The notes under the pieces: model-generated
The model's database searches: none
The model's input: the letters and a program-made list of their open reading frames with translations, nothing else
What the model was told of the DNA's origin: nothing
In this document: positions 3,888 through 22,006 of the stretch, one piece after another
Layout: each line of letters starts with the position of its first letter
Numbering within the stretch: the first letter of the stretch is position 1
Position numbers and translations under genes: made by a program
Source of the DNA: Candidatus Fermentibacteraceae bacterium
Lineage (GTDB): Bacteria; Fermentibacterota; Fermentibacteria; Fermentibacterales; JCC-6
Length of the DNA stretch: 36,152 nt
Reading direction: 5' to 3'
NCBI GenBank assembly: GCA_030592635.1
Contig: JAUVIS010000007.1
Location: forward strand, 1 to 36,152

Positions 3888-5306
3888 ATGAGAGTTACAC
3901 TGGTATATCCCAGCTATGGAACCGAACAGCATTCGCTGTATTTCCCCTTTGGTCTGGCCTATGTGGCGTCATCGTTACTGAATGCAGGACACGAAGTTAC
4001 GGTGGTTGATATGGAGGGAGACCGGCTTTCTGTATCTGAAGCTGTGCGTCGTACTGTGGATTCTTCCCCCGGAGTTGTGGCATTCGGCGGCATGGTAACC
4101 AGATTCCGCTATGTGAAGGAACTGGCAGGTCTCATTCGCGGTGAGATGCCTGGTGTTTTTATGGTTGCCGGTAACAGCGGGGCTACTACTGTTCCTGAAA
4201 TCTATCTCAAATCATGCGGCCTTGACTGTGTTGTGCTGGGCGAGGGAGAAGTCACCGCCGCTGAGCTTGTCTTTGCGGTGGAAGAGGCCGGAGACTGGCG
4301 ACAGGTACCGGGGATCGCCTGGCTGGACGATGACGGTCTGGTTCAGAAATCAGCGCCCAGAGAGCCTGTTGCTGATCTGGATTCACTGCCATGGCCCGCC
4401 TGGGATCTGTTTCACATTGAAAACTATGTGTCCAGCATGGATCACCGTCAGAAAAAGGTCAGACACCTGGAAGCCCTTGCAAGCAGAGGCTGCCCGTTCA
4501 ACTGTGTGTACTGCTACAGGATTTACGGCCGGAATGTCCGAAGAAGATCCCCTGAAGCAATAGTGGCAGAGCTTGTGGAACTTGTTAAGCTTTACGATAT
4601 CCGGTATACGGGTTTTCCCGACGACCTTTTTACAAGCGATAAGAAATTTGTCATGGAGATCTGCGCTCTGATGAGGGAGAAGTTGCCGGGAATCAAGTGG
4701 TCCTGTCTGGGTAGAGTGAATACTGTTGACCGGGAGATGCTTGAAACCATGAAGAACGCAGGATGCGACTGGATATCCTACGGCATTGAATCAGGCTGCG
4801 ACAGAATGCTTGAGAAAATGAAGAGAGGGGTAACCGCAAAGCAGTGTCTTGACGCGATTAAACTTACGGAATCCGTTGGGATACACGCGGAGGGAAGCTT
4901 TATTATCGGGATGTACGGAGAGACCAGAGACTCGGTGAAGAGGACTGTTGAGTTCTGCCGGGAAGCGGATATTACAGCTCCCATGCTTTTTGTTACACCG
5001 TACCCTGGAACTGCCATATTCAGTATGGCCCTGGAAAGGGGCTTGATTAAGGATGTTGAAGAATTCCTCATGAGAATGAACGCGGCGGATGAACTGCTTG
5101 TGAACCTTACTGATTTTACAGACAGTGAACTTATTGAACTTCGCGACTGGGCGCAGGGAACAATAGGAAGAAGCTACCTTTTCAAGAAGCCGTTCACCCG
5201 GATTCCCGATCTTTTATGGAAGCATTTCAAGCTTCGCGGCGCGAGGGGTTTGTTCCACGACATGAGGGCTTTTCTCGCATCTGTACTGTTCAGGAACAGG
5301 GCTTAA
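3888..5306 (+). CDS. B12-binding-type radical SAM protein 1
   Basis: A 472-residue cytoplasmic enzyme. Residues 1-140 form a Rossmann-like cobalamin-binding domain of the BchE/P-methylase class (LVYPSYG at the start, HEVTVVDMEGD, VVLGEGE). The usual DxHxxG histidine motif is absent, as in many members of this class. The 4Fe-4S/SAM motif GCPFNCVYC has C202, C206 and C209, followed by a radical SAM barrel (SYGIESGCDRMLEKMKRG, GSFIIGMYGET). Members methylate unactivated carbons or rearrange lipids and natural products; the substrate here is unknown. It is first in the operon. The next gene starts one base after its stop, so it is co-transcribed with envelope glycosyltransferases. A lipid or sugar substrate is inferred from context. 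Confidence 0.88.
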   Translation: MRVTLVYPSYGTEQHSLYFPFGLAYVASSLLNAGHEVTVVDMEGDRLSVSEAVRRTVDSSPGVVAFGGMVTRFRYVKELAGLIRGEMPGVFMVAGNSGATTVPEIYLKSCGLDCVVLGEGEVTAAELVFAVEEAGDWRQVPGIAWLDDDGLVQKSAPREPVADLDSLPWPAWDLFHIENYVSSMDHRQKKVRHLEALASRGCPFNCVYCYRIYGRNVRRRSPEAIVAELVELVKLYDIRYTGFPDDLFTSDKKFVMEICALMREKLPGIKWSCLGRVNTVDREMLETMKNAGCDWISYGIESGCDRMLEKMKRGVTAKQCLDAIKLTESVGIHAEGSFIIGMYGETRDSVKRTVEFCREADITAPMLFVTPYPGTAIFSMALERGLIKDVEEFLMRMNAADELLVNLTDFTDSELIELRDWAQGTIGRSYLFKKPFTRIPDLLWKHFKLRGARGLFHDMRAFLASVLFRNRA

Positions 5307-5307
5307 C

Positions 5308-6615
5308 ATGACTGGAAACAATGTCTGCGCTGTAAACAGGTATTTGGCTCCCCTGCTTCCCGGAGCAATTCTCATAATATTTGCCGCAGTTATTCTTCCC
5401 CGAATGCTTCTTTTCTTTTACCTGGGCGGCGAGTTGCCGGCGCCCCCGAGGGATCAGCCTCTTTACATCCGCGTTGCCGGCAGAATCGCCCAGGGCGAAG
5501 GTTTTTCTTTTTCCGCAGATGAGGGGATGCTGAGAGATCTGCACATGAATGATCGTGAGTCTTCTCCCTGGATTTCCAGGAGCGACTATGTGTTTGGACT
5601 GACTCCAGTTGAAACTCCAACAGCGGTTATGGAGCCGGGGTATCCTATCCTGCTGGGTATTTTCTTCAGGCTTTTCGGGGCTGTGAGCGGGTCGGTTTTT
5701 ACCATCAATCTTCTTTTTGCTCTGGGCGGGGCATTCGCGGTCAGAAAACTTGTTATGGATGTGTGGGGAGCTGAGTCCGGACTTATGGCAGCCGTTCTGT
5801 GGTCATTGTATCCCCCTTATGTGTATTACTCTGCTTATGCCATGACTGAAACGGCCCACTTTGCTCTGCTTATGATCTCTTCCATGCTGCTTTTATCCGC
5901 AGGCAGAGGAGAGGGGAAAGGGCTGCTGGCAGGTATTTCTCTGGGCGCTTTCTTTCTGATCCGGGCCACCGCAATCTTTCTGATTCCGCTGGAGCTGCTC
6001 TATCTGGCCTGGAGGAAACGCTGGAAAGCTCTTCTTTTCATTTCAGCCGGATTCGTTATTGCGGTATCTCCATGGGTAGCGCGAAACTGGATATCAATGG
6101 GAGAACCGCTGCTGATGCCCACAAAAGGGGTACTCAATTTTCTTACAAGAAATGACCCGGCGACACTGGCTCTTGAGGGCGTCTTTGTGCCCGAAGATAT
6201 ACCTGTTTACAACACTGAGCTTCTGGAGTTTCCCACTGTTGACTCAATACCCGGAGAGCTTGCTAGAAGCAGAGCCCTTGGCGAAGCAGGCAGAACCTAT
6301 GTTTTGAGCAATCCCAGGCTTATGGCGTGGCTTGCCTGGAACCGCGCAACTGGTTTTCTGGCACCCGGCGGCAGTACCCTCGGCACTCGGGGAATGCTTG
6401 CCGGTCTTATTATTTATCCGCTGATGCTGCTTGGAACAATTGGTCTGTGGCGCAATCGATCTCATCCGGAAGCAGTTTTTCTTTTTGCTCTCTTTGTTTT
6501 GTATTTTTTTATACATGTCATGGCACACGGCGGCGTCAGGTACAGACTGCCTGTTGATGCTGTGTTCCTAATGGGAGTGGTACTGGGAACCTGTTGCGGG
6601 AGGGGAAAATCGTGA
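5308..6615 (+). CDS. GT39/ArnT-like membrane glycosyltransferase 1
   Basis: A 435-residue polytopic membrane protein with about ten hydrophobic segments. The first helix (about residues 13-37) is followed by a periplasmic loop with RDQPLYIRVAGRIAQGEGFS, in the place where GT39/PMT enzymes carry their catalytic acidic residue. Further family-like features are SLYPPYVYYSAYAMTE around residue 170 and a conserved SPWVARNWISMG around 252. Such enzymes move a sugar from a polyprenyl-phosphate carrier to a lipid or protein on the periplasmic face. The neighbours argue for glycolipid or polysaccharide decoration. Its stop overlaps the next start by four bases (GTGA). Donor and acceptor cannot be read from the sequence. 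Confidence 0.8.
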   Translation: MTGNNVCAVNRYLAPLLPGAILIIFAAVILPRMLLFFYLGGELPAPPRDQPLYIRVAGRIAQGEGFSFSADEGMLRDLHMNDRESSPWISRSDYVFGLTPVETPTAVMEPGYPILLGIFFRLFGAVSGSVFTINLLFALGGAFAVRKLVMDVWGAESGLMAAVLWSLYPPYVYYSAYAMTETAHFALLMISSMLLLSAGRGEGKGLLAGISLGAFFLIRATAIFLIPLELLYLAWRKRWKALLFISAGFVIAVSPWVARNWISMGEPLLMPTKGVLNFLTRNDPATLALEGVFVPEDIPVYNTELLEFPTVDSIPGELARSRALGEAGRTYVLSNPRLMAWLAWNRATGFLAPGGSTLGTRGMLAGLIIYPLMLLGTIGLWRNRSHPEAVFLFALFVLYFFIHVMAHGGVRYRLPVDAVFLMGVVLGTCCGRGKS

Positions 6616-7985
6616 ACAGGCTGAAACGAATTCTTTTCGTTTTTCCGGAGACCCGCTATCCATCAGGGCAACCGCCTCTGGGGATAGCGATGCTCTCCGC
6701 AGTGGCGTCGCTCTGCGGCGCGAAGACCGCTCTCTGTGATATGTCTTTTCAGAAAAAGCCATTTGAGCATCTGAGTCACCTGCTGAGGGAGTTCAAGCCC
6801 GATGCTGTGTCCATTACTGTAGTTACCCCGCAGATCAGGTCAACTCTCACCGCCTGCGAGATTATCCGGGAAATGTCCCCGGAAGCATACCTTATGATCG
6901 GCGGTCCTCACGCAACAGTGCTTCCAGTGGAAACTCTTGAGACTTCGGGCGCTGACCTGGTTTACTCCGGTGAGGGCGAGATCGCATTCAGAAAGCTTGT
7001 TGAAGGAACTAATCCCGGCGACATTCCCGGAGCCTGCTTCATGAAAGACGGGGAGGCGGTTCTAGTCCCGGGCAGACTGCTGGTAGAGAACCTGGACACT
7101 CTTCCCCTGCCGGACAGAGATATTTTTGACATGAAAAAGTACTTTCAGACATGGTATTCAATGGACAGGGTAGACCCGGGTTTGAAAGGAACTACTATCA
7201 TGGGTACTCGCGGATGCCCCTACACCTGCACATTCTGCCAGCCGACCCTTTCGAGGATATTCGGAAAAAAGATGCGCAGGCGTTCTCCGGAATCAATAGT
7301 GAACGAGCTGAAGCATCTGGTTGAGAAGTATTCCATCAGCGGCTTTATGTTCGAGGACTCCACCTTCATTGTGGATCACAGGTGGGTAACCGATATTTGT
7401 CAGCTGATGAACAGCGAGGGGCTGAAGCTCAAATGGTGCTGCAATGTCAGGGCTGATCTTTTGACAGAGGAACTTCTGGATACAATGGTAATCGCCGGTC
7501 TCTCAAAGGTGAATATGGGAGTAGAATCGGCATCACAGAGAGTTCTTGACGATATTTACAGGAAGGGAATCACTGTGGAGGGTGTTAAGAGAGCACTCCG
7601 GATGTGCCGTTCCCGTGGTATATTTGTTCAGGGCTATTTCATGCTGGGAGCGCCCGGAGAAACAGTGGAGGAGATGAAACAGACCATTGACTTTGCCGCA
7701 CGGGAACCATTTGACGACGCTCTTTTTGATATTACCACTCCGTTTCCCCATACAGAGCTCTGGGAGATGTCAAAAGAGCTGATAAATGCTGATTACTCTG
7801 ATTTCGACTGTTTTCACAAGAGTGTGTATGTGCTGGAAGGGATTACTCCGGAGCAGATAGAGAAACTGAAAAGGAATGCCTTCTGGAAATTTTACGCCCA
7901 CCCGGCAAGAATATTGAAGACCATGCGTACGGTTCTGGGTCCCAGAAACTTCAGAAGAACCCTGCTGAAGGTGAGGAGAGTATGA
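6612..7985 (+). CDS. B12-binding-type radical SAM protein 2
   Basis: A 457-residue enzyme of the same class as the protein encoded at 3888. The cobalamin-binding-like domain covers about residues 1-145 (FPETRYPSGQPPLGIAMLSA, IGGPHATVLP, VYSGEGE). The radical SAM motif GCPYTCTFC has C202, C206 and C209. It is followed by VNMGVESASQRVLDDI and GYFMLGAPGET, typical of the barrel. I start it at GTG 6612, which forms a GTGA overlap with the previous stop and has GGAGG eight bases upstream; TTG 6594 is a weaker alternative. It overlaps the deacetylase gene by four bases. It differs clearly from protein 1 and so probably acts on a different position or substrate. Confidence 0.88.
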   Translation: MNRLKRILFVFPETRYPSGQPPLGIAMLSAVASLCGAKTALCDMSFQKKPFEHLSHLLREFKPDAVSITVVTPQIRSTLTACEIIREMSPEAYLMIGGPHATVLPVETLETSGADLVYSGEGEIAFRKLVEGTNPGDIPGACFMKDGEAVLVPGRLLVENLDTLPLPDRDIFDMKKYFQTWYSMDRVDPGLKGTTIMGTRGCPYTCTFCQPTLSRIFGKKMRRRSPESIVNELKHLVEKYSISGFMFEDSTFIVDHRWVTDICQLMNSEGLKLKWCCNVRADLLTEELLDTMVIAGLSKVNMGVESASQRVLDDIYRKGITVEGVKRALRMCRSRGIFVQGYFMLGAPGETVEEMKQTIDFAAREPFDDALFDITTPFPHTELWEMSKELINADYSDFDCFHKSVYVLEGITPEQIEKLKRNAFWKFYAHPARILKTMRTVLGPRNFRRTLLKVRRV

Positions 7986-8713
7986 GAGAACTTACCGTTA
8001 CAATTGACGACGCAGGGATGCACCCTGCAATTAACGCCGCGATTCAGAAGTGTATAGAGTCCGGGAATGTGGACAGAGTGAGCATAATGGCAACCGGCAG
8101 CAATTTCGCTGAAGCCTGCATGATGGCCATGATGAGAAGTATCCGTGTGGCCGCGCATCTGGATTGCTGCCGAGGTCCATTTCTGCTTGAAGAGAGTAAT
8201 TTCCCTGAGTCATTCGCTGCCTGGATCAAATCAGCTGATTCACTCGCGGATTCTGTTCATAGAGAGTGGTCGGCTCAGATAGAGAAGATACTTTCCTCCG
8301 GAGGTGTTGTTACCGCCCTGGACAGTCATCGCCATCTGCACAATCTGCCTGCTTTGCGGAAAGTTATCATTTCTCTCGCGAAAGACTATGGTATAAGAAC
8401 TGTAAGATCCGCAGTGCTGCCGGACAAATACATGAGATTCCCCGCAGGAATCAAATTGAATTCTCTTGGCTGTGAGCTGAAGACCAGCCTGGAATCCTCG
8501 GGACTTGTTACTACAGACAGGATGCTGGGGTTTGGTAAAGCGGGAAAAATCAACCGGAAGTATTTAAGCAGATTTACTTCTTTATGCCGTGATGGTACGA
8601 CTGAGATTGTGATGCACCCGGCTACCGAAAAGGTTTGGTCCTCCGGACAGCCTGGAGAGCTCGAATTGATCACCTCTGAATGGTTTGGTGACTGGTGCAG
8701 AGGAACAAATTAG
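7982..8713 (+). CDS. ChbG/HpnK (YdjC-like) carbohydrate deacetylase
   Basis: A 243-residue protein of the YdjC fold, a TIM-barrel-like metal-dependent deacetylase family that includes chitooligosaccharide deacetylase ChbG and hopanoid-linked HpnK. Visible metal-site motifs are TIDDAGMH (D9, D10), RVAAHLD (H59), DSHRHLHN (H116, H118, H120) and EIVMHPA near the C-terminus. It has no signal peptide, so it probably acts on a cytoplasmic or membrane-facing substrate such as an N-acetylated sugar on a lipid. The start ATG 7982 overlaps the radical SAM stop (ATGA). It is somewhat short for the family (usually about 250-290). Confidence 0.85.
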   Translation: MRELTVTIDDAGMHPAINAAIQKCIESGNVDRVSIMATGSNFAEACMMAMMRSIRVAAHLDCCRGPFLLEESNFPESFAAWIKSADSLADSVHREWSAQIEKILSSGGVVTALDSHRHLHNLPALRKVIISLAKDYGIRTVRSAVLPDKYMRFPAGIKLNSLGCELKTSLESSGLVTTDRMLGFGKAGKINRKYLSRFTSLCRDGTTEIVMHPATEKVWSSGQPGELELITSEWFGDWCRGTN

Positions 8714-10038
8714 TTTTAAATGTCCTTGGCCTGGCTTTACTGGCAAGACTGGCAGTATTTTACCTGGCGGCAAACGGCTTCTTTCTTGTTGGCGAGGGGC
8801 AGGTGCAGGCCAACATTGCTGAGAACATTCTCTCCGGCAGAGGATTCATGCTCTCCGAGTCCATGTTCCATGATCCCGATCCCAGGCGTGATGCTCATCT
8901 GGAGTTTTTCAGGGAAACCGGCGGGTTCTACGGAGTATTGATTCCGGGACAACCTACCACTTTTCTTGTACCGGGTTGCGCTTTGTTCCAGGCTTTCGTT
9001 TTTATGGTTACTTCTCCGGGAAACCTTCTGGCGGTTATCGGTGTTCAACTTGCTCTGGGGCTCCTCACTGTCTTTCTTGGAATGCGTCTCGCCTCCCGAT
9101 TTCTTTCCGGGCGCTGGTATGCAGCTGCAGGAATATTTATGGCTCTTGATCCATTTGAACTTTACTACCAGGCAATTCCCGCGACTCAGGCTCTTTTCTC
9201 ACTGCTGTTCGTGGCCGGACTGCTTTTTTCTTTGCGCTTTCTTGAGAAACCGTGTCTATCCGGAGGAGTCCAGGCAGGTCTTCTCTGGGGTGTGACATTC
9301 ATGGTCCGTCCTGCGGCGCTCCCAATGGTTCTGTGGCTGGCACTGATTGCTCTTGCCGCATGGAAATTCTCAAAGAAAATGATACCTTCTGTTCTTCTTA
9401 TGATTCTCGTTTTTGGAGCTGTTTTAACACCGTGGGTATTACGCAATAAAAGCACAATGGATCGCTACCAGCTTCTGCCTCTGCAGGGCGGAGTGCAGAT
9501 GTGGGAATTCAATGGCCGAGTGTTTTCTGACAGATTTCTAAACGAGATGGAGGGTGCCAGACTTCTCTACGGACCGGTTCGGGATACCTGGATATCCAGG
9601 CTGAACAGTCCGGAACTCGCGGAATTTCCCGTGTTTACTACAGAATCGGAGTTTGAGAGGGACAGTATCCTGTATTCTCGTCAGAGTAAGTTTCTGAAGT
9701 CGAATCCCGTTGTTTTTCTTCACCTCTCAGCATGCAGATTCGCTGAGTTTTTTAAACCGTTTCCCCTGAATCAATATTCACCGGTACACACCCTGCTCGG
9801 GCTGCTGTCCTTTGCATGGGTTGGCGTTTTCTTTCTCAGCGGAGTTCTCCTCATGCTGCGCAGGGGCTGGTCAGGTGTGTTTATGGCCGGTGTGATAGCG
9901 GGATACATACTTATGCATCTGCTCACGGCTTCCGGAACGCCTCACAGAGTCGCGCTTGATATTCCTCTGGTTACAGCGTCGCTGATTGCGGTAAAGTACT
10001 GCCTTGAAAGGTTCAGAGCCGGGAGAACTTCAGAATGA
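8695..10038 (+). CDS. GT39/ArnT-like membrane glycosyltransferase 2
   Basis: A 447-residue polytopic membrane protein, the second GT39-like enzyme in the operon. The first helix at residues about 7-27 precedes EGQVQANIAENILSGRGFM; a glutamate sits where GT39 enzymes usually have the catalytic aspartate. Other family signs are ALDPFELYYQAIPATQALFS around 148 and TPWVLRNKS around 242. It probably transfers a sugar from a polyprenyl phosphate donor in the periplasm. The GTG at 8695 overlaps the deacetylase gene by 19 bases and has no clear ribosome binding site, so the start is uncertain by a few codons. The next gene overlaps by ATGA. Confidence 0.75.
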   Translation: MQRNKLVLNVLGLALLARLAVFYLAANGFFLVGEGQVQANIAENILSGRGFMLSESMFHDPDPRRDAHLEFFRETGGFYGVLIPGQPTTFLVPGCALFQAFVFMVTSPGNLLAVIGVQLALGLLTVFLGMRLASRFLSGRWYAAAGIFMALDPFELYYQAIPATQALFSLLFVAGLLFSLRFLEKPCLSGGVQAGLLWGVTFMVRPAALPMVLWLALIALAAWKFSKKMIPSVLLMILVFGAVLTPWVLRNKSTMDRYQLLPLQGGVQMWEFNGRVFSDRFLNEMEGARLLYGPVRDTWISRLNSPELAEFPVFTTESEFERDSILYSRQSKFLKSNPVVFLHLSACRFAEFFKPFPLNQYSPVHTLLGLLSFAWVGVFFLSGVLLMLRRGWSGVFMAGVIAGYILMHLLTASGTPHRVALDIPLVTASLIAVKYCLERFRAGRTSE

Positions 10039-10979
10039 AGACCCTTGTAGTGAAGACTCATGCTTTTGGAGACTCACTGCTTGCCACACCTGCCGTGGCT
10101 GCTCTGATTGCGGGCGGGGACAGAGTCACAGTTCTTACAGGTCCTTCTTCGCTGCCGGTGTGGAAGCGTCTGCCCGGGGTTGAGGGGCTTGTTGAATCAC
10201 CGGCTCCCTGTTCCGCGGTAGAACTTCTGTGGTGGTCTCTGCTGAACAGGCAGAGAGGCTTTGACAGAGTTATTCATTTCGGGTCTTCTAATTCCGTTTT
10301 CCGGTGGCTTGGTTTTCTTACCGGGCGGAAGGTGGTCAGCGGCGGTGACCGGGTAACCGGTTTTGGTGTGGTCAGACCGGCGGCCCTTGATTACTGCAGG
10401 ATCGCCGGAGTACAGTGTTCCTCCCTGAAACCTTTGTTTCCTGTAACTCCATCGGAGCTTGAAGCTTCCGGGCGATATACAGGTGAAGACCCTTATGTGG
10501 TTCTTGCACCGGGGGGTGCCCGGAACGCACGGGATTTTGTTCCGCAGAAAAGGTGGCCCATGTCCCGGTGGGCGGAAGTATCTCTTTACCTGCAGGCAGA
10601 GGGTTACAGGATTTTTCTGGCGGGAGGAATGCTTGACAACGCTGAGATATCTTCAGTGAGCGGGATCAATCTGGCCGGTAAGCTTTCCTGGGGTGAAACA
10701 GCGGCTCTGATTTCCAGGGCATCTCTGTTTGCCGGCAATGACAGCGGCCCGGCTCACCTTGCTGTAGCGGGGGATACCCCGGCACTTGTTCTCTTTGGTC
10801 CGACAGACCCCGGCTCCCTCTATGAGAATGGCAGTATTGTCCCCGTTTGTGGAACTGTCTCCTGTTCACCATGTTATGCAAACAGTATTTTCCCCGGTTG
10901 CACAGGAGATGAAGACTGTATGATTTCTATTGACACTGAAAGGGTACTTCATACCCTCGAGGGGATGCTTCAAAAATGA
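10035..10979 (+). CDS. GT9-family (heptosyltransferase-like) glycosyltransferase
   Basis: A 314-residue cytoplasmic GT-B enzyme of family GT9, which includes LPS heptosyltransferases WaaC, WaaF and WaaQ. The N-terminus HAFGDSLLATPAVAAL is the family start. VLAPGGARNAR and KRWPMSRWAEV follow at about 157-180, and the donor-site signature NDSGPAHLAVAGDTPALVLF lies at about 236-255, followed by GPTDP. It would add a heptose or related sugar to a lipid core at the inner membrane. No ADP-heptose synthesis genes are present here, so the sugar is uncertain. ATGA overlaps join it to both neighbours. Confidence 0.88.
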   Translation: MKTLVVKTHAFGDSLLATPAVAALIAGGDRVTVLTGPSSLPVWKRLPGVEGLVESPAPCSAVELLWWSLLNRQRGFDRVIHFGSSNSVFRWLGFLTGRKVVSGGDRVTGFGVVRPAALDYCRIAGVQCSSLKPLFPVTPSELEASGRYTGEDPYVVLAPGGARNARDFVPQKRWPMSRWAEVSLYLQAEGYRIFLAGGMLDNAEISSVSGINLAGKLSWGETAALISRASLFAGNDSGPAHLAVAGDTPALVLFGPTDPGSLYENGSIVPVCGTVSCSPCYANSIFPGCTGDEDCMISIDTERVLHTLEGMLQK

Positions 10980-12427
10980 AAATAACAGCTCTCAACCCGC
11001 CGTTCATTCCTCTTTACAGCAGGGGGCAGCGAAGCCCCGCGGTGACAAGAAGCGGAACGCTGTACTTTCCCATCTGGCTCTCTTATGCGGTAGGAGCACT
11101 TGAGCAGGCCGGGCATACTGTTCAGTTTATAGATTCCCCTGCCATGGATCTGGATTATTCCGAAACCCGGAAGAAGATCAGGGAATTTTCTCCGGATGTC
11201 ATAGTGCTGGACACATCCACACCTTCAATAATTTCCGATACTCAGACTGCGGACATGCTTTCTGATCCGGGAGTCGCGGTTTTTATCGCGGGTACTCACC
11301 CGTCAGCGCTTCCCGGGGAAACAGTACTGCTGGGCCAGCGGTTCCGCGGCGCTGTCCTCGGAGAGTATGAAAAGCCCATTCTCGCAGTGGTGGATGCTCT
11401 TGAGAGGGGTCTTCCACTTGAAGGCATACCCGGAACCGCAATTCGTTTGAAGGATGGAACCGGGGTTGAGGTTACTGCTCCGGACGGCTACCTGCAGGAT
11501 CTGGATTCTCTGCCATTTGTCAGCTCGGTATACGCAAGACATCTTCCTGTTAAGAAATACAACAATCCCAACGCACTGCATCCCCAGGTAATGATTGTGG
11601 GCGGAAGGGGCTGCCCGAATCAGTGCAGTTTCTGTGTCTTTCCTCAAACCCTTACCGGCCGCTGCTACAGAAGCCGTTCGGTGCAGAATGTGGTTGCTGA
11701 AATGAAATGGGTACAGGAGAACATGCCGGAGGTGCAGGCGGTTTTTTTCGAAGATGACACCATTGCCGCAGACATGGAAAGACTGCGACTGCTCTCCGCT
11801 GAAATTGTCAGGGCGGAAGTCACAATTTCATGGACATGCAACATGAGGGCTTCTGCGGATGTTGAGACTCTGCGTCTGTGCCGCGCGGCAGGCTTGCGGT
11901 CGGTGTGTGTGGGTTTTGAAAGCGGATGCAATGAAATTCTGGAATCCATGCGAAAGGGACTCAAGGTGGAGCAGATGGTGGAGTTCATGGAAAATGCCCG
12001 GAAGGCAGGCATTCTTGTCCATGGCTGCTTTCTCTTCGGGATTCCAGGAGAAACCAGAGAGACTGCTCAGCGGACTCTGGACTTCGCGCTGAAACTGAAT
12101 CCGGACACAGCACAGTTCTACCCGCTTATGGTCTATCCCGGAACTGACGCGTATACCGATGTTCAGAAAGCCGGGTTGCTGGTTACATCAAGCTGGAGGG
12201 ACTGGCTGAAGGAAGACGGCACCCATGCCTGTGTGGTAAAAACTCCGGATATGGAGCCGGAGGAGCTGGTTGAATTCTGCAATCACGCAAGAAGGAAATT
12301 CTACCTTAGGCCGGGGTATATCGTTAAAAAGGCGTGGCGCAGTCTTTTTGACAGGGGCGAAAGGCACAGAACTCTGCTCGCATTCAGAACATTCAGGAAA
12401 TACATTTTCTGCCGGAAAAATGGCTGA
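10976..12427 (+). CDS. B12-binding-type radical SAM protein 3 (HpnJ-like layout)
   Basis: A 483-residue protein with an N-terminal cobalamin-binding-like domain (residues about 1-150; LNPPFIPLYSRGQ, IAGTHPSALPGE, VLGEYE). The radical SAM motif GCPNQCSFC has C213, C217 and C220. The barrel continues with VCVGFESGCNEILESMRKG and GCFLFGIPGETRETA. The opening LNPP followed by FPIWLSYAVGALEQAGH is the layout seen in HpnJ-type proteins, and an HpnK-like gene lies nearby. No hopanoid cyclase or other hpn gene is visible, so I do not assign a hopanoid role. ATGA overlap upstream; eight-base overlap with the GT2 gene downstream. Confidence 0.88.
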   Translation: MKITALNPPFIPLYSRGQRSPAVTRSGTLYFPIWLSYAVGALEQAGHTVQFIDSPAMDLDYSETRKKIREFSPDVIVLDTSTPSIISDTQTADMLSDPGVAVFIAGTHPSALPGETVLLGQRFRGAVLGEYEKPILAVVDALERGLPLEGIPGTAIRLKDGTGVEVTAPDGYLQDLDSLPFVSSVYARHLPVKKYNNPNALHPQVMIVGGRGCPNQCSFCVFPQTLTGRCYRSRSVQNVVAEMKWVQENMPEVQAVFFEDDTIAADMERLRLLSAEIVRAEVTISWTCNMRASADVETLRLCRAAGLRSVCVGFESGCNEILESMRKGLKVEQMVEFMENARKAGILVHGCFLFGIPGETRETAQRTLDFALKLNPDTAQFYPLMVYPGTDAYTDVQKAGLLVTSSWRDWLKEDGTHACVVKTPDMEPEELVEFCNHARRKFYLRPGYIVKKAWRSLFDRGERHRTLLAFRTFRKYIFCRKNG

Positions 12428-13382
12428 GGCAGCTGTCGTTATTCCCTTCAGAGGCACATGGGACAGTGTGCTTCCCACTCTGAGGGCACTGAACGCGCAG
12501 ACGATCAGATCCCGTCTGGAGATAGTTCTCAGTATTGACGGACAGGAGAAACCGCTGGCGGATGTTACCGGGCTGGTGGATGTGTATGTTAACGGAGAAC
12601 AGGCCGGACCGGCTTCTGCCAGGAACCGGGGCTGGCGGATTACTGATGCGCCGTTTATTCTGTTCACCGACTCCGACTGTATTCCGGAGACTGTCTGGGC
12701 ACAGCGGATGGTTTGCGGGCTGATGGATGATTATGAGGCAGTGAAAGGGGTATATTCTTCTGGAGGCAGCAGGCTGATACAGAGATTGGCCCAGGTGGAG
12801 TTCGAAGAGAGATACAGGCTTATGGAACGGGCTGAAACCATTCATCTTGCTGATACATATTCTGCGGGTTTCCGCAGAAACTGGCTTGAGAAACTTGACG
12901 GCTTTGATGAGAGCTTTCCCCTGCCGGAGCACGAGGATGTTGATCTTTCCTGGAGGCTGACCCGGGCTGGAGGCAGGATAGGGTTTGTACCGGGTGCCAG
13001 GGTGGCTCATACTCACCAGTCCGGCTGGGTTTCCTATTTCCGGATGAAGTTTCGCCGAGGAAAATGGAGGATAATGCTGGTAAGGAAATTTCCCGCCAGG
13101 GCTGTGAGCGACGGATACACCCCTCAGACTCTGAAGCTGCAGATGCTGCTCGCTGTTCCGGTCGTCTTATCTCTGCTTATTCTTCCCTTTTTCCCTGCTG
13201 TTGCAGTCTCCCTGGTGTTTCTTTTTCTGCTTCTCTGTATTCCTCTTCTGCTTGCAGCCGCAGCTACTGATCCTTCCACTTTACTTCTTGTTCCGTTTTT
13301 TGCGCTCTGGAGGGGCACAGCCCTCTTCGCGGGAGCCGTCCGGGGCATGGCGGGAGGAAAAGACCAGTGTTTGCTCCCATAA
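12420..13382 (+). CDS. GT2-family glycosyltransferase with C-terminal membrane helices
   Basis: A 320-residue protein starting at ATG 12420, which overlaps the radical SAM gene by eight bases (ATGGCTGA). An open extension back to 12270 lies wholly inside that gene and is not credible. The GT-A domain spans residues about 1-225: AAVVIPFRGTWDSVLPTLRA, then GPASARNRGWR, the DxD-like metal motif LFTDSDCIPE around 80, and the acceptor/base region PEHEDVDLSWRLTRAGGRIG around 172. Two or three hydrophobic helices at about 240-305 anchor it to the inner membrane. It probably extends a lipid-linked glycan. The next gene starts inside its 3' end. Confidence 0.88.
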   Translation: MAEAAVVIPFRGTWDSVLPTLRALNAQTIRSRLEIVLSIDGQEKPLADVTGLVDVYVNGEQAGPASARNRGWRITDAPFILFTDSDCIPETVWAQRMVCGLMDDYEAVKGVYSSGGSRLIQRLAQVEFEERYRLMERAETIHLADTYSAGFRRNWLEKLDGFDESFPLPEHEDVDLSWRLTRAGGRIGFVPGARVAHTHQSGWVSYFRMKFRRGKWRIMLVRKFPARAVSDGYTPQTLKLQMLLAVPVVLSLLILPFFPAVAVSLVFLFLLLCIPLLLAAAATDPSTLLLVPFFALWRGTALFAGAVRGMAGGKDQCLLP

Positions 13383-14755
13383 GAAGACAGCAGAGGATAT
13401 TTATTATCTTTCTGGCAGCTGCCGATCTTGTCACAGTTCCTCTTTCACTCCTGGCAACCTGGTATATAAGAACCTGCTGGTTGTCCGGAGTTCTTCCGGA
13501 GTTCGCCCATACAATCGGCACTTACCTTGCCACCATTCCTGTTCTTTCAGTACTCTGGATCGCTTCCTGGTGGTCAACCGGGATGTATATTCACTCTGCT
13601 CAGCAGGGTGCTTTCCCGGGTCTTGCCGGGCGGATGCGCGCTGTTTTTTATCTGGCTGTGTCCATCATGGCAGCAAGCTATCTCGTAAAGATGGATTATT
13701 CAAGAATTATGCTTCTGATTTTTCTGGCGATCTCTCAGCCGGTAAATATTCTACTCCGAAGTATCTTCAGCTCCGCGGCTGGAAAGGTTGCTCCAATCAA
13801 GGAATCACCCGCTACCATTGTGATCGGTTCCGGGGAATTCGCTGAAAGAGTGATTACTTCACTGGGCAAATTTCCGGAGCCCAGACATCAAATAAAAGGT
13901 GTTCTCGCGGAGCAGCCCGGGATTGCTGAAGAGGTCTGCGGGGTAAAGGTTATCGGGGAAATCCGGGATCTTCCGCGTCTTGTTGAAAGCCTTTCAATCG
14001 ATGAGGTTTTCTTCGCCAGCGGCTCCATGAACAGAACGGATATGCTGAAAATTGTAAACTCCGTTGAAAAGGAAGACATTGTTTTCATGCTTGTAACTGA
14101 TCTGTTTGAGATTGCCGCGGGAGTCAGTGATCTCAGCAGTATATCCAGAATGCCCGTGGTGGAAATCGGGTCTTCCGGAAAAGGCACATTCAACAATCTG
14201 ACAAAGCGGATCATGGATTTGTTCATTTCCCCGGTGCTGATTATTATTCTGACACCGCTGATGGCTGTCATCTGGGTAATTCTGGCACTGAGGGGCAGGG
14301 GTACTCCCATATTCAAGCAGACTCGGGTTGGCAGATACGGCAGGGAGTTTACTCTCTACAAATTCAGAACCATGAGGCCTGAAGCGGACGAATATGAAGT
14401 TGCGCCGGTAGCCGGCAATGATCCCAGGGTGACCGGCACAGGCAGGCTTCTGCGGAAAACGAGCCTTGATGAACTGCCTCAGCTGTTTAACGTTCTCAGG
14501 GGACACATGAGTATGGTCGGTCCAAGACCGGAGATGGATTTTATCGTTCGCGACTACAATGCCTGGCAACGCAGGCGGCTGGATGTAAAACCGGGTATTA
14601 CAGGTTTGTGGCAGATTATGGGCAGAAAAGATCTTCCTCTTCATGAGAATCTTGAGTACGACTTTTTTTACATGAGAAACCAGTCTCTCATGCTTGATAT
14701 GGCGATACTCGCCAGAACGGTTGTCACCGTTCTCAAAGGAAGGGGAGCATACTGA
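13367..14755 (+). CDS. Polyprenyl-phosphate sugar-1-phosphate transferase (WcaJ/WbaP type)
   Basis: A 462-residue enzyme that primes glycan synthesis by loading a sugar phosphate onto undecaprenyl phosphate. Four N-terminal membrane helices (about residues 9-130) precede a Rossmann-like CoA-binding domain (TIVIGSGEFAERVITSLGKF, about 147-260). The catalytic bacterial sugar transferase domain follows, with its re-entrant helix near 285-310. Its signatures are KFRTMRPEAD, TSLDELPQLFNVLRG with the catalytic Asp-Glu pair, MVGPRPE and RLDVKPGITGLWQ. GTG 13367 has GGAGG nine bases upstream and overlaps the GT2 gene by 16 bases. It is a complete long-form member. The sugar is probably a hexose or HexNAc derivative. 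Confidence 0.93.
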   Translation: MFAPIRRQQRIFIIFLAAADLVTVPLSLLATWYIRTCWLSGVLPEFAHTIGTYLATIPVLSVLWIASWWSTGMYIHSAQQGAFPGLAGRMRAVFYLAVSIMAASYLVKMDYSRIMLLIFLAISQPVNILLRSIFSSAAGKVAPIKESPATIVIGSGEFAERVITSLGKFPEPRHQIKGVLAEQPGIAEEVCGVKVIGEIRDLPRLVESLSIDEVFFASGSMNRTDMLKIVNSVEKEDIVFMLVTDLFEIAAGVSDLSSISRMPVVEIGSSGKGTFNNLTKRIMDLFISPVLIIILTPLMAVIWVILALRGRGTPIFKQTRVGRYGREFTLYKFRTMRPEADEYEVAPVAGNDPRVTGTGRLLRKTSLDELPQLFNVLRGHMSMVGPRPEMDFIVRDYNAWQRRRLDVKPGITGLWQIMGRKDLPLHENLEYDFFYMRNQSLMLDMAILARTVVTVLKGRGAY

Positions 14756-16667: not shown

Positions 16668-17011
16668 TTGCATTATCTTTACTGCTCTTTTCCTGCGCTG
16701 TCTTCGTGCCGGCTGAAAGGATTGATACCGACCAGCTGGTGTTTCACTATCCGGCGGCTGGCAGGGTTCAGCTCGTCGGGGACTGGAACAGGTGGGGGGG
16801 AGTTACGGGTGCTACCGGTATAGTGAATCCTTCCTGCGGCATTATGGAGAATGATAATGGCGTCTGGACGGCATCACTTCCGGACAATCTGGACAGGGGA
16901 AGGTACAGGTACGCCTTCCTTGTAAACGGGTCGCAATATTTTCCGGATCCCGCGAATCCGGAGCGAACCATATTTATTGAGCATGAGGTTTCGGTTCTTC
17001 TGATTGACTGA
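16655..17011 (+). CDS. Small secreted glycogen-binding-like (CBM48/AMPK-type) domain protein
   Basis: A 118-residue protein starting at ATG 16655 with GGAGG seven bases upstream; the open frame back to 16613 is inside the previous gene. Residues 1-20 are a signal peptide (MDRLIALSLLLFSCAVFVPA). The remainder is a single E-set domain with the pattern of CBM48/AMPK glycogen-binding modules: VQLVGDWNRWGG, then IMENDNGVWTASLP, then GRYRYAFLVNGSQYFPDPAN. No enzyme domain is attached. Such modules bind alpha-glucan in known proteins. Here the secreted form inside a glycan operon suggests a periplasmic carbohydrate-binding or structural role, which is inference. It is followed 17 bases later by a MalK-type ATPase. 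Confidence 0.75.
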   Translation: MDRLIALSLLLFSCAVFVPAERIDTDQLVFHYPAAGRVQLVGDWNRWGGVTGATGIVNPSCGIMENDNGVWTASLPDNLDRGRYRYAFLVNGSQYFPDPANPERTIFIEHEVSVLLID

Positions 17012-17028: not shown

Positions 17029-18078
17029 TTGGCTGCAGTAAGGTTTGAGGCTGTTAGCAAGGTCTACGGCGCGGATTCCAGAGCACTTTCAGATTTTTCG
17101 CTTGATGTTGAAGACGGAGAGCTTCTTGTTCTTGTTGGGCCAAGCGGTTGTGGAAAATCAACAACATTGCGGGTTCTGGCAGGTCTTGAGGAAGCAACAT
17201 CCGGAAGGGTTTTCATTGATGACACTGACATAACCGACGAAACGCCATCAAAGCGTGATATCGCCATGGTATTTCAGAACTACGCTCTCTATCCTCACAT
17301 GACCGTGTTTGACAACATGGCCTTTTCTCTGAAAATGCGTAAGCTGCCTAAAGAGGAGATAAAGCGTTCCGTTACAGAAACCGCTGAGATTCTCGGGATT
17401 TCCGAGTATCTGGAGCGAAAGCCCAAAGAGCTTTCCGGGGGCCAGAGGCAGAGAGTAGCCGTTGGACGGGCGATTGTTCGTCATCCCAGAGTTTTTCTTT
17501 TTGATGAGCCACTTTCCAATCTTGACGCGAAGCTCAGAGTCCAGATGAGAAACGAATTGGCCCGGCTTCACTCACAACTGAAAGCCACAATGATTTATGT
17601 GACACATGACCAGGCGGAAGCCATGACCCTGGGTGACAGAATTGTTGTTCTTAAAGACGGCTTTATTCAACAGGTGGCTCCACCACTGGAAGTCTATAAC
17701 AATCCGTGCAACAGGTTTGTCGCCGGTTTCATTGGAAGTCCAGCCATGAATTTCTTCAAGGCTGAGATAACAGATGGACAGATTCTATCGGCAGGTGGTC
17801 GCCTTGAGATAAACGGAGTGGCTGACGGGATGTACACACTGGGAATCAGACCTGAGGACATTCTTGTGAGGGAGCGGGGACAGTTCATCTGTTCAGTGGA
17901 GGTCGTGGAGACACTGGGCAACGAAAAGGTTGTTATCGGGATCGCCGGAAGCGGCGAGCAGGTCACAGCCAGGTGCAGACCCGAGATTGATATTCATCCG
18001 GGGGGTGAGTTAAGATTCGATATAGACATGACCAATGCTCACCTTTTTGCTGCTGACGGGGTTGAGAGTAAAATATGA
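17029..18078 (+). CDS. ABC transporter ATPase, MalK/UgpC/MsmK type
   Basis: A 349-residue ATPase of the carbohydrate uptake (CUT1) class. It has Walker A GPSGCGKST (37-45), Q-loop VFQNYALYPHMTVFDNM (81-97), signature LSGGQRQRVAVGRA (135-148), Walker B VFLFDEP (155-161), H-loop VTHDQAEA, and a C-terminal TOBE-type regulatory domain from about 235. It is full length for the family. The start is TTG 17029 after AGAGGGGAACAGG. No permease or solute-binding protein is in the window. Either it energises a transporter encoded elsewhere, as MsmK does for several systems, or it has been recruited to this glycan operon. ATGA overlap with the next gene. Confidence 0.92.
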   Translation: MAAVRFEAVSKVYGADSRALSDFSLDVEDGELLVLVGPSGCGKSTTLRVLAGLEEATSGRVFIDDTDITDETPSKRDIAMVFQNYALYPHMTVFDNMAFSLKMRKLPKEEIKRSVTETAEILGISEYLERKPKELSGGQRQRVAVGRAIVRHPRVFLFDEPLSNLDAKLRVQMRNELARLHSQLKATMIYVTHDQAEAMTLGDRIVVLKDGFIQQVAPPLEVYNNPCNRFVAGFIGSPAMNFFKAEITDGQILSAGGRLEINGVADGMYTLGIRPEDILVRERGQFICSVEVVETLGNEKVVIGIAGSGEQVTARCRPEIDIHPGGELRFDIDMTNAHLFAADGVESKI

Positions 18079-19139
18079 TCCTGCTCACCTCGCTGGTCAT
18101 CGCTCTTGTCGTTTCTCTCATAATGACTCCTCTGATGAGTCGTCTGGCCGGTAAGTGGGGTTTTATTGACCGCAAGGGTCAGACGGAAAGCGCGGGCACG
18201 CCTGTAATGGGAGGCATTGCTATTTTCCTGGGGTTTGCCTGTGCCATTGTGGCGGGGATGCTGATTTTTCCCGTTCTTCCGGGTGAAAGCATTGTGGATA
18301 CTGCTTTATCCTGGCGATCCATTTGTATTCTAATGCTGCTGTCCGGTTTTCTAATGGCCCTCACAGGATTTCTTGATGATAAATATGAACTTTCACCGAG
18401 GATGAAGCTCTTTCTTCATTCCGTTGTAGCCACAGTCGCGGGCACCCTGTTTGTAATGAATGGCGCTCAGGTACGGCTTTTTCTGGAAGGAAGCCATCTG
18501 GCATGGCTGGCTGCGCCTGTTACTTTGATCTGGCTTCTTGGAATAACCAACTCGATAAACCTTCTTGATCACGCGGACGGCGTTACAGCGGGCGTATCAG
18601 CCATTTCCGCATTATTCTTCGCTGCACTGAATTTCATGCACGGTAATCCGGCCATAGCATTCATCAGTGTTGCTCTGGCTGGCGCGTCACTTGGGTTTCT
18701 TTTTTTCAACTTTCCACCGGCTTCAACATTTATGGGCGACTGCGGTTCCAATTTTCTGGGTTTTATGCTGGGCATCATAGCCGTTCTCGGAGTATATACG
18801 CCCCGTGGATCAATTCCATATCTGGCAATCCTCTCTCCACTTCTCATTCTGGCGGTACCCATTATTGATACTGTTATGGTTCTTGTTTACCGGAAGAGGC
18901 GTGGAGCTCCTCTTTTTCAGGGAGACAAGAATCACCTGGCGCACAGGCTCATGCGAATGGGGTATTCAAGGAGAACAACCGTGATAATGCTGTACATATT
19001 TTCTGTAATACTGGGAACAATGGCCCTTCTTCTTCCTACCCTGCAGCCTTACCAGGCAATTCTTGCGTTTGTGAACGCCATTGGAGTGATCGGCGTGTTC
19101 ACAATATTCATTGCCCACGGAGAGAAAGGCAACTTCTGA
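18075..19139 (+). CDS. WecA/MraY-family polyprenyl-phosphate HexNAc-1-phosphate transferase
   Basis: A 354-residue polytopic inner-membrane enzyme of the PNPT family, with about ten or eleven helices. It moves a HexNAc-1-phosphate from a UDP-sugar to undecaprenyl phosphate. Visible motifs are GTPVMGGIAI (41-50), FLDDKYELSPRMKLFLH with the DD pair at 101-102, NSINLLDHADGVTAG (159-173), FMGDCGSNFLG, and the cytoplasmic HLAHRLMRMG loop. The last motif and the absence of a peptidoglycan gene context favour WecA/TagO over MraY. It overlaps the ATPase gene (ATGA) and the ligase gene (TGATG). It is the second lipid-carrier priming enzyme in this operon, of a different fold from the one at 13367. Confidence 0.9.
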   Translation: MILLTSLVIALVVSLIMTPLMSRLAGKWGFIDRKGQTESAGTPVMGGIAIFLGFACAIVAGMLIFPVLPGESIVDTALSWRSICILMLLSGFLMALTGFLDDKYELSPRMKLFLHSVVATVAGTLFVMNGAQVRLFLEGSHLAWLAAPVTLIWLLGITNSINLLDHADGVTAGVSAISALFFAALNFMHGNPAIAFISVALAGASLGFLFFNFPPASTFMGDCGSNFLGFMLGIIAVLGVYTPRGSIPYLAILSPLLILAVPIIDTVMVLVYRKRRGAPLFQGDKNHLAHRLMRMGYSRRTTVIMLYIFSVILGTMALLLPTLQPYQAILAFVNAIGVIGVFTIFIAHGEKGNF

Positions 19140-22006
19140 TGAGAACAAAGGTCTCTATGTCATTCACGGTACTGCTGATTGCTGTAATGGCCGGTGTTGT
19201 ATTTGGAATTCTCACAAACAGCAGAAACAGCATTCTTGTTAAAGAGATGTTTTATGTAGCAGGGGGAAGCCTCGCTTCAATGATGGCCGCAGTGTTTCTT
19301 TTTCTTGGAAAGCCATGCTTTAAGCAACGGATTCCAGCAGTTTCCCTTGGCGCGATTGGTGCCGTGCTGGTTCTTATGGTGATAACGCATTTTGCGGGAA
19401 TCGGTTCAACCAACGGGCCTCTCGTTGTTCTCATGCTTCTCTCTCTTGTCGCTCTTACTGTTTCATCACTGCTGTTCATCGATGAATCCCATATCAGGCT
19501 GTTTACAATGATTACGCTTGGATCAGCTGCTGTTATGTTTGTTTACGCCATAATGCAGTGGCAGGGAATCAATATTTTTACCTGGGATGCCGCTCTTACC
19601 AGAAGCGGCAGGAGCACCGGAAGCCTGGGTAATCCCAACCTTCTTGGCGGTTTTGCGTCAGCGATTATTCCTCCTGGCGCAGCATATCTGCTTTCTTTGA
19701 AGAAAATCTCCGCAACTCTCAGATCAGGTATAGCAATCCTGTTTGTCGCACTGGCCACAACCGCTGTTGTCGCGAGCGGAACCAGAGGAAGTGTGATAGG
19801 TGTCACGGCCGGATGCACTGTTCTTTTCATATGGTACTTCAGGAACAGCAGGCAACCTGTCAGGAAACTCATTCCATTTCTTCTTCTCCTTCTGGTGGTG
19901 ATTGCCGCTGTTGCTCTTCCCATGGCCTCCAGACTTTCCGAACTGGATCCAACCGCTGAGGATCAGGGTACCCTTCAGGTGAGAAAAATAATCTGGTCCG
20001 GAGCGTTCATGCTTTTTGCCGATAGCCCTCTGATCGGCCACGGACCTGGATCTTTTCAAATACTTTTTCCGGAATACAGGAATCCGTCCTACAGTATTCT
20101 GGGCGTGAGTCACAATACCCTTCATGCCCACTGCGAGTATCTGGAGATTCTTGCGGATATTGGCATACTGGGGCTCATACTCTGGGGCGCAGCAGCATGG
20201 GGAATGACAGCTCGACTGAAAAAGGCCGATCTGTTCCGGGCAGGTGCCTTTGCCGGAATGGTCGCCATGCTGGCGGAAGCAGTGGTTTCGGTTCATCTGA
20301 GGTGGCCGCCCACAGCTTGGCTGTTCGCAATTCTGGCCATGATTTTTCTTTCCGGAAAAAGTGACCCCGTCCAACCCGGAAGGAAAACCAGAATCAGCGC
20401 TGTGTGCCTGGCAGTGGTGAGTCTTATCCTCGCATCAGGATTTTTTGTGCACTATCTGCCCATGTTACGGTCATCCGAGCTTGTATTCAAAGGCAAGGAC
20501 ATGTTCCTTGCCAGAACAGAGATTGCTATGAAAGGTGCTTATTCGGCTGCTGCTCAATGGGTAAACTCCGGAGATGAAGCAGCTCTTAATGCTGCTGTGG
20601 CTCAATGGCGGAACGCATCGGTTTTTGCGGACAGCGCGGTAATTTATTCAAGACAGGCAACAGAGGTATACCCATACGATCTTGGAGGATGGTATGCTCT
20701 GGGCAGTGCTCATCTAACACGCTACATGGTGATGGAGCCGGTGGTTCCAGCCATGCGCTCGGCTCTGGCGGCGGCAGGGTTATCCCGGCGTTTTACCCGG
20801 CTGGAATTGAGAGAAGAACTGCTCAGGGGAATGGCGGCTTATGACAGTCTTGTAACCATGGCGCCGAACTATGCCGAGGTTCACAACAATCTTGCTCTGG
20901 GTTACTCCAATCTCGGATTGCTGGACGAGTCCATGGAGGAACTGTACGAAGCATACAAGATCCATGCTCACAGGCGGGATGACTATTTTAATCAGGTTTC
21001 CTCTCTTCTCTCCATTCGCCCGAATTCCCGGCACGGTGCCATTCTCTATTTTCATCATGTACTGGCGGGATTCGATATTGAAGCCACCGGAGTGAGGTTA
21101 GAGAAGAATTACCAGAGCATCACGACAAACGCCTGGTTTCTGGTATCAATCCAGCCGGAAAACAAAGCGACTTTGAAGGACGAATTCATCACACTTATTG
21201 AACATTTACTTCCGGCAGAACACCGTGCTGTTCTCAGTGAGAGAATAAGAAACATTGAGAATTATTCTCCCTTCGCCAGCTGGGAGAGTGGTGAAATTCC
21301 TCAAATGAATAATGAAGAGGCCGCTCTGGAATTCCAGCATATGTCGGTCTGTATCGCTTATTCAGGCGCGGCTTTTCCCACAGTATTGCCGCAGGACGCA
21401 AATTACTACAGTTATCCCGCTCTGCTCCTTTTCAGATCAGACTGGAACCTGGAGTTGTATGACCATGTACTGACAACGCTGCTTTATCAGATCGCGATTG
21501 ATCGGAATCTTGATGCCGTAAATACTCTTATACAAAGCGACCGATTTCACGCATCCGTGGAGTCGGGTGTCGCAGAACGGGTAAGGGATATCAGAATTGC
21601 CCTTGGAGGAAGCAGAACGGCCATGAGGGAAGGCTTTGGAATGCCATGGCTCTCAGGCAGTCTTCCGGCACTTATTTCCGACAGTCTCCACTCAAGGATT
21701 GCCTCTGATTCCTTGAACAGCAGGTGGTATCAGATGGAACTGAGAATGACCTTTCTTCTGGTGACTTCTTACTGGTGGGACTACAACATTTTCGCACCGG
21801 AGCAGAACCAGTATCTGCTTGATCGTATCTTCTATTGCAGAGATATGATACGGGAACTTGAGCCTTCTTCATGGCAGAATACCGTATCAGGGATTCTCGC
21901 TGACGAGATCGAGAGGATTGGCTCGCAGACCAATTTTATCTGTCCGTCTACGGTAGGGCTGCTCAGGGATGATCTTGTAAGCGGCGCGGCAAGAGTCTTC
22001 GATTAG
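19139..22006 (+). CDS. O-antigen-ligase-like membrane protein fused to a large TPR-containing region
   Basis: A 955-residue protein. The N-terminal half (about residues 1-440) has roughly a dozen membrane helices and Wzy_C/WaaL-type signatures. These are GSLGNPNLLGGFASAIIPPG near 160, RGSVIG near 215, the periplasmic-loop pattern DSPLIGHGPGSFQ near 297, and HNTLHAHCEYLEILADIG near 325. The C-terminal half is soluble, probably periplasmic, with at least one or two clear TPR units around 570-620 (YAEVHNNLALGYSNLGLLDE) and a long helical region beyond. WaaL-family proteins join a lipid-linked glycan to lipid A core or to protein. The fused TPR part could recruit the acceptor. Last gene of the operon, followed by an intrinsic terminator. 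Confidence 0.85.
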   Translation: MRTKVSMSFTVLLIAVMAGVVFGILTNSRNSILVKEMFYVAGGSLASMMAAVFLFLGKPCFKQRIPAVSLGAIGAVLVLMVITHFAGIGSTNGPLVVLMLLSLVALTVSSLLFIDESHIRLFTMITLGSAAVMFVYAIMQWQGINIFTWDAALTRSGRSTGSLGNPNLLGGFASAIIPPGAAYLLSLKKISATLRSGIAILFVALATTAVVASGTRGSVIGVTAGCTVLFIWYFRNSRQPVRKLIPFLLLLLVVIAAVALPMASRLSELDPTAEDQGTLQVRKIIWSGAFMLFADSPLIGHGPGSFQILFPEYRNPSYSILGVSHNTLHAHCEYLEILADIGILGLILWGAAAWGMTARLKKADLFRAGAFAGMVAMLAEAVVSVHLRWPPTAWLFAILAMIFLSGKSDPVQPGRKTRISAVCLAVVSLILASGFFVHYLPMLRSSELVFKGKDMFLARTEIAMKGAYSAAAQWVNSGDEAALNAAVAQWRNASVFADSAVIYSRQATEVYPYDLGGWYALGSAHLTRYMVMEPVVPAMRSALAAAGLSRRFTRLELREELLRGMAAYDSLVTMAPNYAEVHNNLALGYSNLGLLDESMEELYEAYKIHAHRRDDYFNQVSSLLSIRPNSRHGAILYFHHVLAGFDIEATGVRLEKNYQSITTNAWFLVSIQPENKATLKDEFITLIEHLLPAEHRAVLSERIRNIENYSPFASWESGEIPQMNNEEAALEFQHMSVCIAYSGAAFPTVLPQDANYYSYPALLLFRSDWNLELYDHVLTTLLYQIAIDRNLDAVNTLIQSDRFHASVESGVAERVRDIRIALGGSRTAMREGFGMPWLSGSLPALISDSLHSRIASDSLNSRWYQMELRMTFLLVTSYWWDYNIFAPEQNQYLLDRIFYCRDMIRELEPSSWQNTVSGILADEIERIGSQTNFICPSTVGLLRDDLVSGAARVFD

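Follow-up and report, generated by a model that had tools for sequence, protein, structure and literature searches.

Radical S-adenosylmethionine (SAM) enzymes with a B12-binding domain are known to methylate their substrates, to contract rings and to carry out further reactions (PMC13331322). One of them, HpnJ (TIGR03471), acts in the hopanoid route, in which HpnI adds N-acetylglucosamine (GlcNAc) to bacteriohopanetetrol, HpnK deacetylates the product and HpnJ forms the cyclitol ether (PMC12583986; PMC5462960). AprD4 (PDB 6fd2), from an antibiotic pathway, is a radical diol dehydratase acting on the aminosugar glycoside paromamine, and OxsB/AlsB contract the sugar ring of a nucleotide substrate. 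Here we describe a run of nine genes, from 3888 to 14755 in a contig of a Candidatus Fermentibacteraceae bacterium, in which three genes for such enzymes, named RS1, RS2 and RS3, are interleaved with glycan synthesis genes. The whole contig (C127, 36152 bases), to which we refer as the window, belongs to a metagenome-assembled genome of 2.35 Mb that is 89% complete. On the glycan side, the closest described counterparts are the WcaJ/WbaP-type loci with Wzy, which the window resembles in its polyprenyl-phosphate glycosylphosphotransferase (PGT), its glycosyltransferase genes, its Wzy_C protein and its WecA-like gene. To our knowledge, conserved B12-radical-SAM genes are not found among the glycosyltransferase genes of these loci.

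We consider it probable that the run performs B12-radical tailoring of polyprenyl-linked sugars during the assembly of a surface glycan. The direct observations are the domains, the gene order, the clades, the partners and fusions that recur in distant genomes, and the lack of a detectable hopanoid cyclase; substrate, step order and chemistry are what we infer. Relative to what NCBIfam, the PDB and the searched open-access papers contain, the enzymes are of a known kind, in a setting that we found undescribed. An earlier note on this DNA had likewise supposed that a pathway with this gene set is undescribed, and the open-access text searched contained none. We know of no described case of B12-radical chemistry in surface-glycan assembly, to which radical tailoring, if true, would add it.

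Gene content of the run

The nine genes are tightly packed on the forward strand in the order RS1, GT39a, RS2, YdjC, GT39b, GT9, RS3, GT2 and PGT, with overlaps of 4 to 19 bases at each junction from GT39a through PGT and a spacing of 1 base between RS1 and GT39a. RS1 (3888..5306) and RS2 (6612..7985) are B12-binding radical SAM proteins, each of its own clade, assigned by Pfam and tree together with orthologs for RS1 and outside neighbours for RS2. RS3 (10976..12427; Pfam, tree, model) is HpnJ-related and falls into a cross-phylum clade of B12-binding radical SAM proteins, which we call RS3-type. GT39a (5308..6615), a polyprenyl-phosphate-sugar-dependent glycosyltransferase of the PMT_2 family, and GT39b (8695..10038), a second PMT_2-family glycosyltransferase, are both assigned by Pfam and synteny. 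YdjC (7982..8713; Pfam, NCBIfam, metal-ligand residues) is a YdjC/HpnK-like carbohydrate deacetylase and GT9 (10035..10979; Pfam, NCBIfam, synteny) is heptosyltransferase-like. Next to RS3 follows its partner GT2 (12420..13382; NCBIfam, outside loci, fusions), an MftF-like membrane glycosyltransferase, and the run ends with the PGT of the Bac_transf family (13367..14755; Pfam, TIGR03025, synteny), which scores 370 bits to the exopolysaccharide-type profile TIGR03025, above its cut-off of 295.6 bits.

All nine genes thus lie as the earlier note had placed them, and its description of the genes at 3888, 6612 and 10976 as radical SAM proteins with a cobalamin-binding domain and a CxxxCxxC motif agrees with the profile matches. 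RS1, RS2 and RS3 score 66, 61 and 43 bits to the B12-binding domain (PF02310, cut-off 32.1 bits) and 89, 88 and 85 bits to Radical_SAM (PF04055, cut-off 29.5 bits). The motif is at residue 202 in RS1, 208 in RS2 (counted from the TTG at 6594) and 213 in RS3; the start of RS2 is the GTG at 6612, preceded by GGGAGGGG. About 13 B12-binding proteins above the Pfam cut-off are encoded in the 2.35-Mb genome, which gives P ~0.004 for two further ones lying at most 8.5 kb from one of them. Because of this value and because the gene order is kept in 19 related contigs, we conclude that the clustering of the three genes is not due to chance.

Relationships of RS1, RS2 and RS3

None of the three proteins reaches an NCBIfam equivalog cut-off, methylase equivalogs included. 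To HpnJ (cut-off 577.6 bits), RS3 scores 347, RS2 173 and RS1 163 bits; to BchE (TIGR02026, 481 bits), RS1 scores 187, RS2 171 and RS3 142 bits; and to AprD4 (NF033070, 500 bits), RS2 scores 116, RS1 107 and RS3 80 bits. BchE is the best or second-best NCBIfam match of RS1 and RS2, but occupies a separate branch in our tree.

In this tree, computed with IQ-TREE for 71 proteins, RS3 and a second HpnJ-like copy found in the same order (RS3b), together with 23 proteins of other genomes, make up the RS3-type clade of 35 rows (support 100/99). It is separate from the clade of true HpnJ (6 rows, 100/100), and both lie inside one clade (97/89). RS1 and RS2 each form their own clade (100/100) outside the RS3-type/HpnJ clade, with an exact placement that is unsure because of long branches at the base of the tree. 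The earlier view that the three proteins are different is therefore supported, none of them matches a named family, and the three separate clades rule out that they are recent duplicates of one another.

RS3 shares with HpnJ its domain layout and eight residues that are mostly not found in RS1, RS2 and BchE. By sequence, AprD4 is the top solved match for all three proteins. It is also the nearest fold to a structural model of RS3 (predicted local distance difference test 92.5), solved with paromamine, followed by TsrM, MgmA and OxsB, even though AprD4 and RS3 have only ~22% identity. OxsB shares the B12-radical-SAM fold (TM 0.71 by query), but OxsB/AlsB are larger than RS3, with 15% identity. 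Judged by this model, RS3 may catalyze dehydration, methylation or ring contraction.

HpnJ-like proteins are common: at E<=1e-75 they occur in 96 of 385 bacterial genomes, the window's order counted in, or about a quarter of those sampled, and the cut-off of the hopanoid enzyme is passed in five genomes only.

Conservation within the order

RS3 is the invariant member of the run. It lies within the run in every contig examined, and its orthologs (54-90% identity) are present in nearly all genomes of the order. The arrangement GT39a-(RS2)-YdjC-GT39b-GT9-RS3-GT2-PGT, continuing to the Wzy-like gene, is the same in 19 contigs of families f1 and f3 as far as the contigs reach; in one of these, L049, that search gave no match for GT39. 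A small contig of the third family, f2, contains GT39a-RS2-YdjC-GT39b.

RS2 is part of the run in the window's genus, in f2, in f3 and in some f1 genomes. Several genomes of genus g2 carry it outside the run, often beside another B12-radical-SAM gene, and have therefore not lost it. Such a further gene stands beside RS2 in the g2 loci L280, L281, L282, L283 and L285, with hydrogenase-subunit-like proteins near most of them.

RS1, on the other hand, adjoins the run in the window's genus only. The idea of one conserved run thus holds for the gene order of the 19 contigs and fails for RS1. In the rest of the order, RS1 orthologs (61-77%) are either missing or placed at other loci, and since they occur order-wide, RS1 is not specific to the window's genus. 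In G002 and G012, the two species with the RS3 closest to that of the window, RS1 has decayed in situ: its remnants (L039 16325-16560, L040 3119-3822) are spread over several frames, with an internal stop in G012, and represent a natural loss of the gene.

RS3b (~43-48%) is likewise nearly universal in the order. At L059 (G000:C223, 9100-13122) its neighbours are a further PGT and a DegT aminotransferase, with genes resembling SLBB export and Wzz chain-length genes nearby.

RS3-type loci outside the order

Loci outside the order were selected by the similarity of the radical SAM protein, independently of their neighbourhood. Besides the run itself we examined 33 RS3-type loci, 7 of them with RS3b of the order and 26 others. 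A GT2 of the window's type lies within two genes of the radical SAM gene in 13 of these 26, compared with 3 of 139 other B12-radical-SAM genes (Fisher 7e-10, a value that overstates the evidence, since related genomes are counted separately). In four genomes RS3 stands beside a GT2::PGT fusion, whose PGT part is short in G169 and G306 and full in G189 and G327, and G307 has RS3-GT2-PGT in the same arrangement as the window. A fold search with GT2 was unspecific and matched general GT2 folds.

Searches with the GT2 alignment also detected GT2::PGT fusions away from RS3 (G118, G075, G260), two of the three adjoined by GT9, and further GT2-PGT pairs that are neighbours without being fused. GT2-PGT is therefore the more general unit, often accompanied by GT9, and RS3 is a frequent addition to it. 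In two of the fusions (L130 6259-8529, L137 10946-13249) the PGT part looks degenerate, with altered KFRTM and DELPQ stretches, and this half may be inactive.

Among the matches listed, the named carriers of RS3-type proteins are a Nitrospirae bacterium, a Fibrobacteres bacterium, an uncultured Terriglobus, a Diapherotrites archaeon and a Thaumarchaeota contig; the carriers are partly metagenome records, in which binning errors are possible. The Diapherotrites contig (L152 5098-13531) has RS3-GT2-GT9 near an STT3/AglB protein and a WecA-like gene, which hints at radical tailoring of archaeal glycans. On a 27-kb plasmid of Lawsonia intracellularis (L145 9531-10994), an RS3-type gene lies among glycosyltransferase, GalE, SIS, HAD, GHMP kinase and heptose-type genes. 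The link of the RS3 clade to genes that start polyprenyl-linked glycans, across many phyla and an archaeal contig, offers a concrete substrate class for these proteins.

A different multi-radical-SAM cluster occurs in three genomes (L120 2405-10832, L113, L151), where RS3-GT2 is found with two more B12-radical-SAM genes, lipid A acyltransferase-like and alpha/beta hydrolase-like genes, GT9 and DUF362.

Relatives of RS2 and RS1 outside the order

The nearest outside relatives of RS2 (44-45%) are in G189 and G327, whose RS2 loci contain a PMT_2 protein, a further B12-radical-SAM gene and GT2 genes judged DPM1-like by eye. Across the outside RS2 loci, such a GT2 lies beside RS2 in five of six, and the PMT_2 protein is present in the nearest two. 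The same two genomes also hold RS3 proteins that group with the RS3 of the window (89/95), and one family thus has both the outside RS3 and the outside RS2 nearest to those of the window. For RS1, the nearest relatives have 37-41% identity, and a CTP_transf_3 cytidylyltransferase (CMP-sugar type) adjoins them in three of five loci, NeuB in one.

A proposed pathway

In the pathway that we propose, the run would make a surface glycan on a polyprenyl carrier, probably an O-antigen-like or other envelope polysaccharide, and B12-dependent radical enzymes would alter its sugars before they leave this carrier. The run would consist of two joined modules, B (GT9-RS3-GT2-PGT) and A (GT39a-RS2-YdjC-GT39b). 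In module B, the PGT would transfer a sugar-1-phosphate onto polyprenyl phosphate and so start the glycan, GT2 and GT9 would extend it, and RS3 would rebuild one of these sugar units. In module A, the GT39 enzymes would use polyprenyl-phosphate donors to attach sugars outside the membrane, RS2 would modify one of these donors or the sugar that it carries, and YdjC would remove an N-acetyl group. RS1 would be an accessory, dispensable tailoring enzyme, and the Wzy-like protein and the envelope genes downstream would complete the polymer. Most probably, then, RS3 is the core tailoring enzyme, RS2 is tied to polyprenyl-phosphate donors and GT39, and RS1 is accessory.

A deacetylated sugar is likely somewhere in the glycan, because YdjC retains its metal ligands: D9, D10, H59, H116, H118 and H120 are invariant in 12 orthologs, and the protein matches PF04794 with 128.7 bits. 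For RS3, our first guess is a rearrangement or deoxygenation of the sugar ring without methylation, by analogy with HpnJ and AprD4, which act on aminosugars, rather than a C-methylation. More tentatively, and with rather low confidence, RS3-type proteins could be a cross-domain family that rebuilds the sugar ring, for example by contraction to a cyclitol, on polyprenyl- and dolichyl-linked glycans; bacterial polysaccharides and archaeal glycoproteins would then contain a radical-made carbocycle, with RS2 and RS1 making further changes to the same glycan.

Several observations weigh against this pathway. An adjoining GT2 is lacking at about half of the outside RS3-type loci, although some of these are on short contigs; RS3b adjoins a PGT but no GT2; in the order's other genera, RS1 mostly has non-glycan genes as neighbours; and Lip_A_acyltrans, DUF362 or AMP-ligase genes, present at some of the outside RS3-type loci, would be compatible with a lipid substrate.

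Alternative explanations

The three radical enzymes might instead be C-methyltransferases acting on sugars or on the polyprenyl chain. Methylation is given as the commonest reaction of B12-radical-SAM enzymes in PMC11659888 (see also PMC13331322), and TsrM and MgmA are among the top structural matches of RS3. Yet the family nearest to RS3 is HpnJ, which is no methylase, its structurally nearest protein AprD4 is a diol dehydratase, and no methylase equivalog cut-off is reached, so that we regard this explanation as possible but unlikely.

A direct copy of the hopanoid route on another lipid, in which GT2 would add GlcNAc, YdjC would deacetylate it and RS3 would contract the glucosamine ring to a cyclitol, would follow a described series of enzymes. 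It could draw on the proximity of RS3 to HpnJ, including the eight shared residues, on a GT2-type partner in both cases (in Paraburkholderia, HpnJ adjoins HpnI), and on YdjC, which, with its metal ligands in place, scores better with HpnK (TIGR03473; 94.3 bits, cut-off 232.6) than with ChbG (58.8 bits, cut-off 227). However, RS3 is 230 bits short of the HpnJ cut-off, and GT2 is MftF-like rather than HpnI-like: the module GT2 of another genome scores 21 bits to HpnI, with a cut-off of 310. Moreover, YdjC is located between RS2 and GT39b, it is near none of the 33 RS3-type loci outside the run, and a YdjC of any kind (PF04794) occurs in 3 of 20 RS3-type genomes outside the order, as opposed to 4 of 5 genomes with true HpnJ. 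This scarcity rules out the co-occurrence of HpnK and HpnJ as a rule for RS3-type proteins, and we judge the copied route to be improbable.

The HpnK/HpnJ-like pair had reminded the earlier note of hopanoid loci, in spite of the missing other hpn genes. No hopanoid cyclase is detectable either, and the two genes do not look like a working pair, YdjC belonging to the RS2/GT39 part. Squalene-hopene cyclase (PF13243) has no match in the window's genome (G000, 89% complete) and none in the other searched genomes of the order save one weak match of 24 bits in G001. Hopanoids are therefore unlikely in this organism, and we reject the reading as a hopanoid locus.

The radical enzymes could also modify a membrane glycolipid or lipid A in place of a polymer precursor. 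Lip_A_acyltrans, AMP-ligase or DUF362 genes at some outside RS3-type loci would agree with this, as would the LpxC detected in the window's genome. The window's own run has none of the three gene types, its PGT, WecA-like and Wzy-like proteins indicate polymer assembly, and the archaeal carrier contig has an AglB-like gene instead; we thus consider such a target quite doubtful. The surface glycolipid modified at up to three positions that had been envisaged survives as a glycan operon, while three positions are unproven, with RS1 beside the run in one genus and decayed in the two nearest species; as for a separate membrane lipid, the neighbours indicate the sugar or the polyprenyl carrier as target.

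That the radical SAM genes are unrelated and were caught in a glycan locus with no common task, as the single genus with RS1 beside the run and the displaced RS2 of many g2 genomes might suggest, is very improbable, given that RS3 lies in the run in all contigs examined and that both RS2 and RS3 retain glycan genes as partners even in distant genomes.

Neighbouring genes

After a gap of 110 bases behind the PGT, further packed genes follow on the forward strand as far as 22006, and the run probably continues through them to Wzy. The first are two conserved unannotated proteins (14866-15501 and 15498-16667) and a CBM48-like protein (16613-17011), all three in synteny throughout the order, followed by a likewise syntenic MalK-like ABC transporter ATPase (17029..18078). 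A WecA/MraY-like polyprenyl-phosphate sugar-1-phosphate transferase (GT4; 18075..19139) and a polymerase/ligase-like protein of 955 amino acids with a Wzy_C domain (19139..22006) are both assigned by profile match and synteny. Downstream of the latter, genes named by eye from the sequence read as rimP, nusA, infB and other housekeeping genes.

Upstream of the run, on the opposite strand, lies a TPR-repeat protein with a cysteine-containing C-terminal stretch (250-1605). At the contig end (35079-35900), another radical SAM protein (PF04055) is encoded, which reads like the AmmeMemoRadiSam or activating-enzyme type.

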